Assembly: GCA_035998445.1 (NCBI GenBank)
Contig: DASYHQ010000018.1
Location: forward strand, 124,001 to 188,000
From: Tepidisphaeraceae bacterium
Lineage (GTDB): Bacteria > Planctomycetota > Phycisphaerae > Tepidisphaerales > Tepidisphaeraceae
Reading direction: 5' to 3'
DNA: 64,000 nt
The notes below the pieces were generated by a model. That model was given only the letters and a program-made list of their open reading frames with translations, did not search any database and was not told the origin of the DNA. Numbering within the stretch: position 1 is the stretch's first letter; each line of letters begins with the position of its first letter. A program made the translations under genes and the position numbers. Positions 7,089 to 56,520 of this stretch are shown one piece after another.

Positions 7089-7141
7089 GCCGGGATTGTA
7101 TGCAGGGAAGGATGACGGGGGAAACGATGCTGCTTTGGGGG

Positions 7142-7272
7142 AAATGACCAATGCCCAAATCCCAATGACCAATGAAGCCTCAATAACCAATGACCAACAG
7201 AAGGCGGTCCTCATTGGTCATTGGTGCTTGGTCATTCATTGGTCATTCGGACTTGGGTGTTGGTCATTCCGA
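7142..7272. repeat. CAATGACCAATG-type inverted repeat element
   Basis: Repeated AATGACCAATG words on the left half face their complement CATTGGTCATTGGTGCTTGG on the right half, forming an imperfect palindrome of about 130 bp. A second copy of the same design lies at 34508-34622, and single arms flank the gene at 32897-33397. No gene is visible here. Confidence 0.7.
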
Positions 7273-7313
7273 AATCACCCTCCGGGCGTACCGACGAGAG
7301 GACCAGGAACTGC

Positions 7314-8102: not shown

Positions 8103-8202
8103 GACCTCACCTCCTGAAACCGACTGACGGTCCTGTAATAACACAACTGAACGCTGGAATGCCGAGTGAAGATGCCAACGTTACGCCCGCGAAGTCCATT
8201 CT

Positions 8203-8664
8203 TGCCCGAGCAAAATCGAATTTTGCCCGGGGAAGGTTGCGTTGTACCCGGGGAAGATTCGATTTGCCCCGGGGACAATTGCATTGTACCCGGGGACAAT
8301 GCCGTTGGACCCGGGGACAATTGCATTGTACCCGGGGACAATGCCGTTGGACCCGGGGACAATGCCGTTGGACCCGGGAACAATGCCGTTGGACCCGGGG
8401 ACAATGCCGTTGGACCCGGGGACAATGCCGTTGGACCCGGGGACAATTCCGTTGGACCCGAGGACAATGCCGTTGGACCCGGGGACAATGCCGTTGGACC
8501 CGGGGACAATGCCGTTGGACCCGGGGACAATGCCGTTGGACCCGGGGACAATGCCGTTGGACCCGGGGACAATGCCGTGGGACCCGGGGACAATTCCGTT
8601 GGACCCGGGGACAATTCCGTTGGACCCGGGGACGATCCAACTTTTCTCGGGGAGAACCGGACTT
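8203..8664. repeat. Tandem array 1: 22 units of 21 bp
   Basis: Units share the core CCCGGGGACAAT followed by a more variable GCCGTTGGA-type half. From 8203 to 8664 the period is exactly 21 bp with no insertion or deletion. The central units (about 8340-8640) are nearly identical, while the outer ones drift (GCCCGAGCAAAAT at the left, CTCGGGGAGAACC at the right) but stay in register. It lies between the hydrolase start and the phosphatase gene. The 21-bp period keeps several frames open by default, so the long open frames here are not evidence of coding. Confidence 0.95.
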
Positions 8665-8667
8665 GCC

Positions 8668-8752
8668 GGGTGCCACGGTGGGGTACGCCAGGCCGTGTCT
8701 TTTCAGCCCGAGGAAGGCACGGCCTGGAGTGCCAGACCGTGGCACCCCCGCT
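8668..8752. repeat. Long imperfect palindrome
   Basis: The left arm GGTGCCACGGTGGGG...CAGGCCGTG pairs with the right arm CACGGCCTGGAGTGCCAG...CCGTGGCACC, with an inner loop near 8700-8720. It is MITE-like and directly abuts array 1. From 8753 to 8915 I see no further structure. Confidence 0.65.
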
Positions 8753-30263: not shown

Positions 30264-30938
30264 CTACGCCGCGATCGTCCGCGTCTGCGCCGCAATCAGC
30301 TTCGCCATCCCCGGCGTCACGCCGAAGCTGACGTTGTGCTGCACCCAGTCGCCGGCCTTGCGCGACCGCACCGCCCGCACGTGGTACGTCACGCTCGCCA
30401 CCCCCGCCGGCAGCGTGGTGTCGTGGAACCGCTTGGTCCCCACCACGCCCAGGAAGACGCGCTCGGTGCCGAACCCACCGCTGCGCCATACCTCGTACAT
30501 GGTGCCACGCGCCCCGCGCGGGTTGTCGCACGCCCACTTTAATAGTCCCGTTCCGATGCCGTTGAGGACGAACGTGAAGCGAACTGGTATCCCCGGCGGC
30601 GGCAACGGCGATGCGGCATCGCGGACGCTTAGTCCCAGTTTGATCCGCGTGGAGTCGCTTACGGCTGCGTTGCCCGCGATCACCTTCGCCAGCGCCGATG
30701 CCATCTGCCGGACGAACTTTTCCGCGCTGTTCTTCGTCGTCACCTCAGCAACAGTGCGGTTGTTCCGATTGCTCGTCGCCTGATACGCCGCCTGCCACTC
30801 TGCATCGGCCGCCACGTAAGCCGCCGCTGCTGCTTCGGGTAAACCGTACTCGGCCCACGACGCGCTGATCTTCTCCGCAAACGCCCGCGAGCCAATCGCC
30901 AACTCCGCTTCCGTGCCCGTGAAAAAGCTCTTGCTCAT
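30264..30938 (-). CDS. Helical plus FN3-like protein P1, preceded by tandem array 2
   Basis: 224 aa. The N-terminal half is helical (FFTGTEAELAIGSRAF ... EYGLPEAAAA ... NRTVAEVTTKNSAEKFVRQM ... NAAVSDSTRIKLGLSVRD). After a proline linker (ASPLPPPG) comes a fibronectin-III-like beta domain (GTMYEVWRSGGFG, TTLPAGVASVTYHVRAVRS). Same order and spacing as the protein at 55831-56520. There is no signal peptide. I have seen similar hypothetical proteins in planctomycetes and other phyla but know no function. The ATG is 138 bp from array 2. Confidence 0.8.
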   Translation of the reverse strand: MSKSFFTGTEAELAIGSRAFAEKISASWAEYGLPEAAAAAYVAADAEWQAAYQATSNRNNRTVAEVTTKNSAEKFVRQMASALAKVIAGNAAVSDSTRIKLGLSVRDAASPLPPPGIPVRFTFVLNGIGTGLLKWACDNPRGARGTMYEVWRSGGFGTERVFLGVVGTKRFHDTTLPAGVASVTYHVRAVRSRKAGDWVQHNVSFGVTPGMAKLIAAQTRTIAA

Positions 30939-31075
30939 ATGAATTCCCTTTATCCGCCCGCGGCCTTAGCCGCCCATGCCCGCTTCCCCGTCTCTATCGA
31001 CGCGCCCGCCCGCCCAGTTCACCCGCAGAGGCGTTTTCATGCCAAAATCATCGTTATCGGTCGCACATCCGCCTC

Positions 31076-31285
31076 AAACGGTCGACGTTTCGCGCCAAAC
31101 GGTCGACGTTTTGCCACAAACGGTCGACGTTTCAGGCCAAACGGTCGACCGTTCACGTCAAACGGTCGACGCTCCGTCTTGAACGGTCGACGTTCCGCCC
31201 TGAACGGTCGACCGTTCGACTCGGACGGTCGACGTGTCACCTCAAACGGTCGACCGTCCCACCCAAACGGTCGACCGCCCGCCCC
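31076..31285. repeat. Tandem array 2: 10 units of 21 bp with a GGTCGAC core
   Basis: Every unit begins (A)AACGGTCGAC or close to it, then 11 variable bases; the period is 21 bp with no indel through ten units. Most units contain the palindrome GGTCGACC or GTCGAC flanked by AAC/GTT. One weaker unit (CGGTCGCAC) precedes it. In the rest of 30939-31534 I see no gene; this stretch contains the promoter regions of P1 (leftward) and of the gene at 31535. Confidence 0.95.
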
Positions 31286-31534
31286 GGGAACGGCTCCGAT
31301 CCCCTAAGCACAAGCGGCGTAACCCCCATCGCGTCCATCAATCATGCTATTGTGCGCCGCGCGCCGATCATCATCCCCACTCGCCCGACCGCCCCATCGC
31401 TGCAACTGGCGGTCAACCCCGCTCTTGCGTGCACTTTCATGATCTACTACGGGAATGCTATGATGCGCACTGCGCCAATCAACGTGAATCGGCCGGTCAG
31501 GTCAATCACTAGTTATGCGTTGAGGAGATGCAGC

Positions 31535-32721: not shown

Positions 32722-32895
32722 TTGGTCATTTGTTTGGCATTGGGGCTTGGGATTTTGGCTGTGAGAAATCCGGGGGAGACACAGACAAGAATGTCCGTGC
32801 CACAGAAGACGGGGGGAGATCGGGGGGAGAGACAGGCAGGAATGACTGTCCTACAGAAGAGGAAGAGAGACAGACAAGAATGTCCGTCCCACCGC
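32722..32895. repeat. Left inverted arm and ACAGGCA hairpins
   Basis: 32722-32750 (starting TTGGTCATTTGTTTGGCATT) is an exact inverted match of 33453-33481 on the other side of the gene at 32897-33397. From 32775 several ACAGGCA/AGACAAGAATGTCCGT words follow, of the family seen at 10669 and 48215. Confidence 0.75.
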
Positions 32896-32896
32896 C

Positions 32897-33397
32897 CTAC
32901 TGCTTGCCTAAGAGCTTGGCATTCAGTCGGGGCGCCAGCAGTTCCAGCGGGGTCACGTGCTTTACGCGGGCGATCCAGATTGTCCACCCGAGCAACAGGA
33001 TGGCCGTGAGGTAGTTTTGCCAGCTGCTCAGTTCCCACGCGTGCTGCGTGAGGTAGCCGCGGTCGTCGAACGGCCACCAGTAGTGGATCTTCCACAATGG
33101 CCCGGACCCGAAGAAGTCCATCAGCAGATGCAGGTGAAACAGGCCGAGGTAGAGCAGGAAGCACTTCAGCTTGTGCGCCGAGATCGCCGCGGCCGCGAGG
33201 CTGTAGAGTAGCCCGACCAGCAGGTTGTGGCCGACGATGTGGTGAAAGCGCCAGTACGCCTCTTCGCCGAAGAAGAAGCCGAGCCCGTCGAGGTCGTGCA
33301 CGCTGGCCGCCACCATCGCCAGCAGCCGTTCGCGCGGCGACAGGTTGAAGCAGTTGGCGACGCACCAGCCGGACAGGATGTGCGTGGGAATGTGCAT
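32897..33397 (-). CDS. YdjM/DUF457-like membrane protein, putative metal-dependent hydrolase
   Basis: 166 aa. His/Asp pattern typical of the LexA-regulated membrane-bound hydrolase group: HIPTHILSGW at the N-terminus, VHDLDGLGFFFG, RFHHIVGHNLLVG and FHLHLLMDFFG, with three or four hydrophobic helices. Catalysis is not proven for the family. The gene is flanked by inverted copies of a 29-bp sequence (32722-32750 and 33453-33481), so it may have moved as a cassette. Confidence 0.8.
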   Translation of the reverse strand: MHIPTHILSGWCVANCFNLSPRERLLAMVAASVHDLDGLGFFFGEEAYWRFHHIVGHNLLVGLLYSLAAAAISAHKLKCFLLYLGLFHLHLLMDFFGSGPLWKIHYWWPFDDRGYLTQHAWELSSWQNYLTAILLLGWTIWIARVKHVTPLELLAPRLNAKLLGKQ

Positions 33398-33581: not shown

Positions 33582-34502
33582 CTATTGGCCGGCCATCAGC
33601 ACCGCGATGATCCCCTTCTGCGCGTGCAGCCGATTCTCGGCCTGCGGGAAGATCAGCGACTGCGGGCCCTCCATCACGGCGTCGCTGATCTCCAGGCCGC
33701 GGTAGGCGGGCAGGCAGTGCAGGACGACGGCTTGCTTGGGGGCGTTGCTGAGCAGTTGTTCGTCGATGCAGAAGCCGGCGAAGTCTTTGATCCGGCGGGC
33801 CTTCTCGGCCTCCTGGCCCATGCTGACCCAGGTGTCGGTGTAGACGGCGTCGGCCTCCTGCACGGCTTCGGCCGGGTCGTTCGTGACGATGTATTCCATG
33901 TCCGGCACGAGCGACATCACGCGGTCGACGTCCTCGTTCGGCAGCATGTAGCCGGCGGGCGTGGCGCACACGAACCGCATGCCCAGCTTGCCGCAGGCGA
34001 TCGCCAGCGAGCGCGTGACGTTGTTGCCATCACCCACGTAGGCGAGCGTGCGGCCCTTCAGGTCGCCGAAGTGTTCCTCGAGCGTGAGCATGTCCGCCAT
34101 CGCCTGGCAGGGATGGTTGTAGTCGGTCAGACCGTTGATGACGGGGACGGTGGCGTACTTGGCCAAGTCGGTGATCTTCGCGTGCTCGAACGTGCGGGCC
34201 ATGATGCCGTCGCACATGCCGCTGAGCACGCGGGCGACGTCCTGCACCGGCTCGCGCTTGCCAAGGCCCACCTCTTCGTCGCGCAGCAGCAGGCCGTTGC
34301 CGCCGAGGTGCGTCATGGCGACCGCGAAGCTCACGCGCGTGCGCAGCGAGGGCTTTTCGAAGACCATTGCCAGCGTCTTGCCCGCCAGCAGCGCGTCGTT
34401 CTTCCCCGTGGATTTGTACTGTTGCTTCAGCCGCTTGGCGACGTCCAGAAAGTGCCGGATTTGATCGGGCGTGAAGTCGGCGATGGAGATGAAGTCTTTC
34501 AT
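33582..34502 (-). CDS. argF: Ornithine carbamoyltransferase
   Basis: 306 aa. Makes citrulline from ornithine and carbamoyl phosphate. Carbamoyl-phosphate loop KPSLRTRVSF (about 50-59), ornithine/carbamoyl motif HPCQAMADM and the catalytic HCLPAYRG near the C-terminus. ATG 34502 matches the family start (KDFISIADFTPDQI). Downstream of argB on the same strand, separated by the repeat at 34508-34622. Confidence 0.96.
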   Translation of the reverse strand: MKDFISIADFTPDQIRHFLDVAKRLKQQYKSTGKNDALLAGKTLAMVFEKPSLRTRVSFAVAMTHLGGNGLLLRDEEVGLGKREPVQDVARVLSGMCDGIMARTFEHAKITDLAKYATVPVINGLTDYNHPCQAMADMLTLEEHFGDLKGRTLAYVGDGNNVTRSLAIACGKLGMRFVCATPAGYMLPNEDVDRVMSLVPDMEYIVTNDPAEAVQEADAVYTDTWVSMGQEAEKARRIKDFAGFCIDEQLLSNAPKQAVVLHCLPAYRGLEISDAVMEGPQSLIFPQAENRLHAQKGIIAVLMAGQ

Positions 34503-34507
34503 GGCAA

Positions 34508-34622
34508 GCCTCAATGACCAAACCAGAATGACCAATCAATGACCAATGCCCATGTCCCAATCTCGACCCCATTGGTCATTGGTGCTTGGACATTATTTGG
34601 TCATTCGGGTTTGGTCATTGGT
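34508..34622. repeat. CAATGACCAATG inverted repeat between argF and argB
   Basis: Left words AATGACCAATCAATGACCAA face right words CATTGGTCATTGGTGCTTGG. It occupies the whole argB-argF gap and would form a long hairpin in an argB-argF transcript. Confidence 0.75.
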
Positions 34623-50517: not shown

Positions 50518-50535
50518 GGAAGTGTGGGTTGTGGA

Positions 50536-50574
50536 TTGCGGACTGCGGACTGCGGACTGCGGACTGCGGACTGA
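50536..50574. repeat. Heptanucleotide microsatellite (TGCGGAC)n
   Basis: About five tandem TGCGGAC units just beyond the isomerase gene. The 7-base period is not a multiple of three, so it is a noncoding slippage-prone repeat. Confidence 0.9.
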
Positions 50575-54470: not shown

Positions 54471-54620
54471 AGGCATTATCTAGAATGGCTTCGCCCATCA
54501 GCGGTTTAGAAGAGGCGCTGTCCCAAATCACCACAAGCGATTCTGGTACCCCATTGTAGTCGATGCCGGCGGAGCAGAAAAGGGAGCAGAAAAGGGGGAC
54601 ATCACTGATTAAACTGTGGC

Positions 54621-54958
54621 GGGTGGCATGGCCTTCGGATGTGGGTGCCATGGCCACGCGGGGGGCCGGTGCCGGAGCGTCGGATGGGTGTCCCGCGTGG
54701 CCATGTCGTCGGGCCTTATCGCAGACATGGCCACGCTCGAACCGCCCCGGTGGGTGGACGCGATTCGTCGGCGTGGCCATGGCACCCGCGCGGGTGGCAT
54801 GGCCTTCGGGTGTGGGTGTCATGGCCACGCGGGGGGCCGGGGCGGGAGCATCTGATGGGCGCTCCGCGTGGCCATGTCGTCGGGCCTTATCGCAGACATG
54901 GCCACGCTCGAACCGCCCCGGGGGGATGGACGCGATTCGTCGGCGTGGCCATGGCACC
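54621..54958. repeat. Two-copy tandem duplication of 169 bp
   Basis: 54621-54789 and 54790-54958 match over most of their length (GTGGCATGGCCTTCGG...ATGGCCACGC, GCGTGGCCATGTCGTCGG, TGGACGCGATTCGTCGGCGT). Each copy also contains many CATGGCCA half-palindromes. The two-copy state and small differences show a fairly recent duplication. No coding frame is shared and conserved. Confidence 0.85.
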
Positions 54959-55117
54959 CGCGCCACATCGTCGTTGGCCCGCTCGGTGCCAGGGGTCGCG
55001 GGACGCCGGGACCTGTGATTGCGGTAGTGCCGAAAGCACAGGTCTGCGAACACGCCGACCCGTGGCACCCGGCATCCAGAAAATCAAAGATGGATGCGAG
55101 CAAACAAAGGTCGACGC

Positions 55118-55777
55118 GGCGGATCAGGGCGGGACGAACCGGATATAGGACGAGCGGTCCGGAGAAGCGCTCCACGTGCCGAATAGGAACCGGGCGCGCC
55201 GAACGAGATTCGGACCTGCGGGATAAACGCAGGACGCGGCGGATGAGATCCGGCCGCGTCGTGTAATAGCCGGGCGCGCCGGATGATATTTGGACATGCC
55301 GGAAGATATTTGCGGCCGCCGGAAGATATTTGGCCGCGCCGGAAGATATTTGCGCCCGCCGGAAGATATTTGGTCGCGCCGGAAGATATCTGCGCCCGCC
55401 GGAAGATATTTGGACGCGCCGGAAGATATCTGCGCCCGCCGGATGATATTTGGCCGCGCCGGAAGATATCTGCGGCCGTCGGAAGATATTTGGTCGCGCC
55501 GGATGATATTTGCGCCCGCCGGATGATATTTGGTCGCGCCGGACGATATCTCCGCTCGCCGGAAGATCTTTGGACGCGCCGGAAGATACTCGGACGCGGC
55601 GGATAATAACGGGCCGCGCCGGATGAAATACGGAGGTGGCGGATAATAACGGGGCGGGCCGGGTGATCGTTGGGCGCGGCGGGTGAGATTGGAGGGGGCG
55701 GGATGATTTTCGCAGCGGTCGGGATCAAGTCGGCGCGGTGGCGGGTCGATAGGACGCGTGGAGCCGGGCGTTTGAGC
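55118..55777. repeat. Tandem array 3: 33 units of 20 bp
   Basis: Core unit GCCGGAAGATATTTGGCCGC; 16 units at 55278-55597 are close to it (GCCGGA(A/T)GATAT(T/C)T(G/C)...), and outer units are degenerate but stay on a strict 20-bp grid without indels from 55118 to 55777. Unit ends alternate between TGG-type and TGC-type, hinting at a 40-bp super-period in the centre. The array ends 54 bp before the start of P2. Confidence 0.95.
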
Positions 55778-55830: not shown

Positions 55831-56520
55831 ATGCAGATGATCTTCAGGTTCCCGCGGCGCGATGGTGATCTGTTGCCGTTTCTACTGCACTTTCATCAGC
55901 AGGTCGCGGCGGAGCGCGAGGCGCTAGGGGTATCTGAGGCAGAGGTGGCTGAGTTGGCGGCCCGTGTCGCGCGGTTCGAGGCGGCCCTGCTGAAGTGCGA
56001 GCCGGCGGTCCGCAGCAAGGCCGCGGTCATCAACAAGGAAGAGGCCGGCGCGGCGGCCAGGACGTTCGCACATTCTGTGGCGATATCGATCGCCATGCGG
56101 AACTATGTTTCAGCACCGCAAAAGCAGGCGCTGAACATCCGGCCGCGCAAGCCGCACACGCGCAGCCACCGCCCCACCGAGCGTCCCGTTGTGACCATCG
56201 CGGCTTGCGCGGAGCGCTCGATCGAGCTGCGCCTTGGCGCCGGCCCTTCGACCGTGGCTGGCGCTGCATCGGTGCTCGTCTTCACGTTCGTGGGCAAAAA
56301 CTATCCCGCCGACGCGTCGCTCTGGCAGTTTTGCAAAGGGCTGCGCCGCCCGCGATGCCGCATCGACTTTCCCGACAATCTGCCGCCCGGCGTGCAGGTG
56401 TGGGTGTGCGCGGCCTACTGCTCACGCCGCGGCGAGCGGGGCGAGATGAGCTTGCCGGTGACGACGAACCTGCAGATGGGCGGCGTGGGCCGCGCGACGA
56501 CGTACCTCTCGGCGGCGTGA
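55831..56520 (+). CDS. Helical plus FN3-like protein P2, preceded by tandem array 3
   Basis: 229 aa. The same architecture as the protein at 30264-30938: an N-terminal FPRRDGDLLPFLLHFHQQVA and helical half with EALGVSEAEVAEL, AVINKEEAGAAARTFAHS and MRNYVSAPQKQALNIRPR. After a Pro/Arg linker comes a beta domain with SVLVFTFVGKNYP and NLPPGVQVWVCAAYCSRRGERG. There is no signal peptide. Identity to P1 looks low, but order, spacing and several words correspond. Function unknown; the shared upstream array architecture is the main clue. Confidence 0.8.
   Translation: MQMIFRFPRRDGDLLPFLLHFHQQVAAEREALGVSEAEVAELAARVARFEAALLKCEPAVRSKAAVINKEEAGAAARTFAHSVAISIAMRNYVSAPQKQALNIRPRKPHTRSHRPTERPVVTIAACAERSIELRLGAGPSTVAGAASVLVFTFVGKNYPADASLWQFCKGLRRPRCRIDFPDNLPPGVQVWVCAAYCSRRGERGEMSLPVTTNLQMGGVGRATTYLSAA

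Follow-up and report, generated by a model that had tools for sequence, protein, structure and literature searches.

The window analyzed here, a 64,000-nucleotide stretch of a Tepidisphaeraceae bacterium genome, carries on its reverse strand (positions 30264 to 30938) the gene for a 224-amino acid protein that we call P1. This open reading frame begins with an ATG at 30938 and encodes a protein with a pI of 10.0 that combines a helical N-domain with an FN3-like C-domain and ends in -TIAA. A leader on the same strand (30939 to 31075), which contains GTCGATAGAGACGGGG and, before the ATG, the RBS-like sequence AAAGGGAA, separates the gene from Array 2 (31076 to 31285). Sequence inspection and TRF agree that this array consists of exactly ten contiguous 21-bp units without indels, located 138 bp from the ATG, as stated in the original prediction. 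Each unit comprises the core RRACGGTCGAC followed by a variable 10-bp spacer, and ACGGTCGAC is invariant in 10 of 10 units. The proposed layout of a constant core and a variable spacer is therefore borne out across the P1 units. The unit is also dyad-symmetric, a feature absent from the prediction, and some units carry the dyad AACGGTCGACCGTT.

The pattern is not the result of chance, in that ACGGTCGAC-N12-ACGGTCGAC has 24 matches in the 5.84-Mb genome, confined to four tight clusters, whereas the reversed control pattern has 0. The array had been described as belonging to P1. It does sit upstream of the gene, but its unit also recurs in three arrays without a P1-family gene nearby (C17:241497, C35:57079, and C52:168082), which we refer to as orphan arrays. 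An ATG-started open reading frame on the opposite strand (30939-31307) reads Array 2 as heptapeptides. This coding reading was rejected and the array judged to be non-coding because sister arrays either have a period of 20 or carry stops. P1 is a real gene: counting P1 itself, BLAST-level comparison recovers 17 family loci in the same genome, where 28 profile matches reach E<=0.01.

A second P1-family gene (55831 to 56520, forward strand; 229 amino acids, ending in -LSAA; E 1.4e-63) lies downstream of Array 3 (55209 to 55667), which has ~23 units of 20 bp (CGCGCCGGAAGATATTTGG; TRF span 55272-55662). Between them, at 55745 to 55762 on the forward strand, is a promoter-like motif, GTCGATAGGACGCGTGGA, which represents the family motif TTTTATCGGRCGGGG and has p=0.064 at this single locus. 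The Array 3 unit recurs as an orphan at C18:80875-81334, and the motif was duplicated together with it. By eye, GTCGATAGAGACGGGG in the P1 leader resembles the motif at 55745, but the family motif scan gives no significant TTTTATCGGRCGGGG score at the P1 locus. Array 1 (8171 to 8688) is an orphan 21-bp array of ~20 clean units (CGTTGGACCCGGGGACAATGC) whose unit is that of the array at the family gene C28:12654. It is flanked by an alpha/beta-hydrolase-like gene and a GAF-type sensor-like gene.

The P1 family and its upstream arrays

P1-family proteins are ~225 amino acids long, lack an obvious signal peptide by eye, and have no match that stands in Pfam, NCBIfam, PHROGs, or PADLOC, the last of which leaves the family without a defense-system identity in that library. 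An AF2 model built from 10 sequences (pLDDT 76) has its N-terminal part folded as a bundle of helices and its C-terminal part as an FN3 sandwich, and the best Foldseek matches are FN3 domains (E 2e-4) with the corresponding beta-sandwich. Together with a weak FN3 domain profile match, the model backs the helical/FN3-like description of the original prediction. Only FN3 was matched by Foldseek, and no HTH or other DNA-binding fold was found in the model. FN3 hypothetical proteins similar to P1 presumably occur in other phyla.

The pI is at least 9.1 in 16 of 16 aligned members (genome median, 6.7), and all 16 end in -AA compared with 4.4% of called genes, a family trait rather than a set of independent draws. 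This ending is absent from the homologues of two genomes outside the class. Invariant columns are limited to P115, P177, G196, and A224, and because these are only two prolines, a glycine, and the terminal alanine, an enzymatic function appears unlikely. A transposase was considered and rejected for lack of conserved catalytic residues. A conserved terminator-like hairpin, GGCGCGGCCTGTGTGGCGCGCC, lies just past the stop codon of many family genes in this genome (L004, L005, L006, and L008-L011).

The association between family genes and arrays is very strong. By TRF, all 17 family loci have an upstream array of 20 or 21 bp, or of 42 bp in the case of the frameshifted L013. We also examined a 1.95-Mb sample of the genome picked partly around family genes (most of C18, C17, C61, C41, C5, C28, and C59). 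Of the 60 tandem arrays in it with a period of 14-30, 47 repeat every 20 or 21 bp, and array density is ~24 per Mb. Within this sample, a 20/21-bp array lies <=1.2 kb upstream of 17 of 21 family genes (at one of these positives, C11, another gene intervenes), and the other four lack a strong array. When only confidently called genes are counted, an array lies no more than 700 bp upstream of 10 of 12 family genes compared with 24 of 992 others (Fisher p=3e-14). The P1 family alone recurs beside arrays, and no second gene family common to their neighbors was found. At L017 (C5:135657-136289), the family gene is disrupted close to its 3' end, in a stretch that contains a 30-bp tandem repeat, and the array is intact. 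Its close paralogue L015 keeps the gene and near leader and has a different array.

Of the 61 genomes in the relatives set, 19 have homologues (the own genome is one of them), as do 8 of 199 sampled across the phylum. This distribution is patchy and the copy number is high, with ~25 copies in the own genome and 44, 41, and 21 in three genomes of one genus. One of the three, G054, is a single contig, and therefore the high copy number is not an assembly artifact. When the 31 lags from 10 to 40 were compared upstream of homologues, lag 21 was best in 54 of 67 cases, or 47 of 60 after removal of duplicate loci, with two genomes outside the class among those covered. As background, 279 stretches of 1 kb were taken from G054; lag 21 came out best with an identity of >=0.5 in 15 of them and of >=0.6 in 6. 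Most homologues thus have an upstream array, contrary to the outcome (homologues mostly lacking one) that had been named as counting against the gene-array pairing. Arrays are present at all three loci named, one from a Humisphaera sp. MAG and two from a Phycisphaerales MAG, and in two genomes outside the class they are non-coding and stand in front of clear ribosome-binding sites.

Phage or plasmid origin of P1 was rejected, with no matches in INPHARED or PLSDB; a few IMG/VR contigs carry homologues. Some homologues reside on viral-type contigs without an array, and a weak 21-bp array is present at one IMG/VR homologue (L263:731). The viral-classified contigs L262 and L263 each carry two P1 homologues beside methyltransferase/restriction-like genes, and on L262 a tape-measure-like gene adjoins them as well. 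An empty-site comparison turned up a single weak relative of the neighbor gene within the family.

Unit anatomy and orphan arrays

Family arrays consist of 10-20 units of conserved core and variable spacer. Their period is exactly 21 bp, as in the P1 array, or 20 bp, which agrees with the spacing of two helical turns noted earlier for P1. Period 20 is confined to one protein subclade, a distribution that would be compatible with a single origin. Dyad symmetry reaches p<0.05 in 16 of 27 own-genome arrays (combined p~1e-18) and again in 8 of 18 arrays of G054 (p~1e-6), where the p values come from column shuffles that treat arrays as independent, although clusters with shared units are not fully so.

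Palindromic units would also suit an array that acts as RNA, through repeated hairpins in a leader or small RNA. However, compensatory changes within arrays do not exceed chance (118 observed versus 136 expected), several dyads are loopless, and the array would not be transcribed, given that the promoter-like motif is situated between it and the gene. We consider a role as RNA to be highly improbable. Because there is no covariation within arrays, the symmetry looks like that of dimer sites in DNA rather than hairpins.

Unit sequences are wholly different between paralogues; what persists family-wide is the period, the position, and the dyad-symmetric core. No unit is common to several of the 26 arrays of G054, and unit similarity is uncorrelated with protein similarity (Mantel r=-0.03), such that L005 and L008 have proteins that are 66% identical and unrelated units. 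This complete turnover could be explained if geometry rather than sequence were at work. Phased two-turn satellites at the promoter would then act by bending or wrapping the DNA or by recruiting a general nucleoid protein, and P1 would be only the regulated product, for instance a structural protein, as FN3 proteins often are; the homologue that adjoins a phage tape-measure-like gene would fit this role. The difficulty is that the core AACGGTCGAC is ~82-100% conserved within and between four P1-unit loci, whereas spacer columns fall to 22% between loci, and a core that is kept while its spacer diverges implies sequence recognition. Moreover, the units that orphans share each belong to a single family locus. 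An explanation by geometry is rather unlikely.

VNTR/contingency promoters contain tandem repeats whose unit number changes, and unit number also varies among the family loci, with higher-order periods of 42 and 63 bp that indicate recent duplication of unit blocks. If the array were a variable-number promoter of this kind, then unit number would tune or switch P1 expression. We judge this to be very unlikely, given that the uniform length of the units and their conserved cores point to recognition and that the proteins lack an obvious signal peptide. Furthermore, unlike contingency promoters, P1 arrays keep their period and layout across classes, have a conserved core, and are associated with a whole gene family.

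Eight clusters in the own-genome sample bring together arrays with a common unit; each is composed of exactly one family-gene locus and one to three orphans, and ~15 orphans match no other array. Orphans are intergenic in 27 of 29 cases, have no preference for promoters, and exhibit no orientation bias of the kind expected of drivers of neighboring genes. Many family arrays have the motif TTTTATCGGRCGGGG on the side that faces the gene (13.0 bits versus ~10.1 in shuffles), and several orphans retain it within ~100-140 bp of gene-proximal flank but lack the gene. Unit sharing by orphans could be plain descent. One unit searched in each of three other genomes gave no orphans, and therefore the system does not always include them. 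At C18:612278-612811, outside the window and 148 bp from an orphan array, is a gene that by eye resembles an IS200-like Y1 transposase (TTYGTWLHG).

The intergenic location of orphans, their retained flank without a gene, their indifference to neighboring genes, and the high and patchy copy number are all features that a dispersing satellite-like or mobile element could produce. In that case, the array and flank would be the element, the genes would be carried along or would stabilize it, and orphans would be non-autonomous copies. Yet the proteins have neither conserved catalytic residues nor a transposase-like fold, constant ends and target duplications were not found, and flanks are mostly not common to arrays of different loci, apart from unrelated intergenic repeats. 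A mobile element seems distinctly unlikely.

Comparison with known repeat systems

The iterons of theta-type plasmid replicons are in-phase tandem repeats of ~20-22 bp beside the gene for their binder, which is under autogenous control (cf. PMC3155836). The P1 family likewise has in-phase direct repeats of ~20-22 bp upstream of a cognate gene, but it has no Rep protein (no Pfam or NCBIfam match) and an FN3 fold instead, and it is chromosomal, with 20-40 differing copies per genome and no replicon. A plasmid location for the P1 locus is not indicated, as the window lies in a 671-kb contig, no plasmid homologue was found, and copies occur throughout the single contig of G054. In type II par systems (parC/ParR), short repeats form an array that lies upstream of the cognate gene and overlaps its control. 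In contrast, the P1 arrays share no neighbor family besides P1 and hence no ParM-like NTPase partner, and the family is chromosomal and multi-copy.

REP/BIME repeats are not known to form long single-orientation arrays of constant 20/21-bp period. In the REP-RAYT literature, these repeats are described as palindromic and intergenic, with a gene-bearing locus, dispersed copies, and unit families that differ by gene (PMC2817692, PMC3116915). The P1 family shares the arrangement of one gene-bearing locus plus dispersed copies; it differs in having no Y1/HUH transposase match, no conserved catalytic residues, and no second shared neighbor family. CRISPR arrays differ as well, in that P1 units are contiguous 21-bp repeats with related spacers rather than ~30-bp unique ones, and, in place of cas genes, only the P1 family is shared among neighbors.

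The P1 arrangement appears most like iteron or par-type arrays beside a cognate gene, which would be nearest in workings; the other defining features compared are absent. No description of this gene-array layout was found in the searched libraries or in open-license PMC papers, in accord with the earlier statement that no such system had been described. The consulted part of an anammox genome paper counts 260 short tandem repeats without analyzing them (PMC5854607).

A candidate multi-site operator

Our confidence in a mechanism behind the gene-array pairing is at most moderate, and we tentatively propose that the P1 promoter contains a multi-site operator, namely the array, to which P1 or a partner would bind as dimers in phase. 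A one-gene module would consist of an array of 10-20 units (20 or 21 bp), a short leader, often with TTTTATCGGRCGGGG, and a gene that encodes a small basic protein. Within such a module, the array would lie in the promoter region of the gene, with each dyad core a candidate binding site and all sites on the same face of the helix. We infer that the sites are filled by dimers, most probably of the linked protein but possibly of a partner, and that occupancy of the array would set expression of the linked gene autogenously. In some families, copies of the array would have reached further intergenic sites, at which the protein could have trans effects. The C-terminal -AA may render the protein short-lived in an ssrA-like manner.

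An operator is favored by the association with arrays, the persistent period, the conserved cores, the dyads, the single family locus in each unit cluster, and the basic pI of these non-catalytic-looking proteins. Against it are units that do not track proteins, the lack of a DNA-binding fold, orphans unbiased toward promoters, the three genomes without orphans, and family genes without arrays. Because unit sequence does not follow protein similarity, binding specificity would have to switch abruptly. This mismatch, together with the array change between L015 and L017, indicates that either such a switch occurs or the binder is not P1. We hold it doubtful that the dozens of paralogues in one chromosome, each with a private dyad array of 20 or 21 bp at its own promoter, form mutually orthogonal pairs that arise by wholesale array replacement at fixed geometry, with the helical-plus-FN3 architecture as a new putative type of array binder.

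With up to 44 gene copies per genome, the module is common; it is also old, being retained in different classes of the phylum, and it falls outside Pfam, NCBIfam, PHROGs, and PADLOC. If the proteins bind the arrays, then a single genome would naturally contain many orthogonal protein-DNA pairs whose specificity switches rapidly, and thus a route to studying how recognition evolves. If they do not, then promoters retain a DNA geometry of exactly two turns even though the sequence is not conserved, which would be equally unexplained.

Other repeats also occur in this genome. Inverted-repeat elements of ~165 bp (97% identity) flank several arrays outside the window. Within it, a 7-bp tandem repeat, GGACTGC, is present at 50533-50573 (5.9 copies, 97% matches), and other dispersed intergenic repeat families are located at 7120-7300, 32740-32900, 34500-34620, and 54600-54970 (TTGGTCATT..., GACAGACAAGAATGTCCGTCC..., and the 171-bp pair GGTGGCATGGCC).
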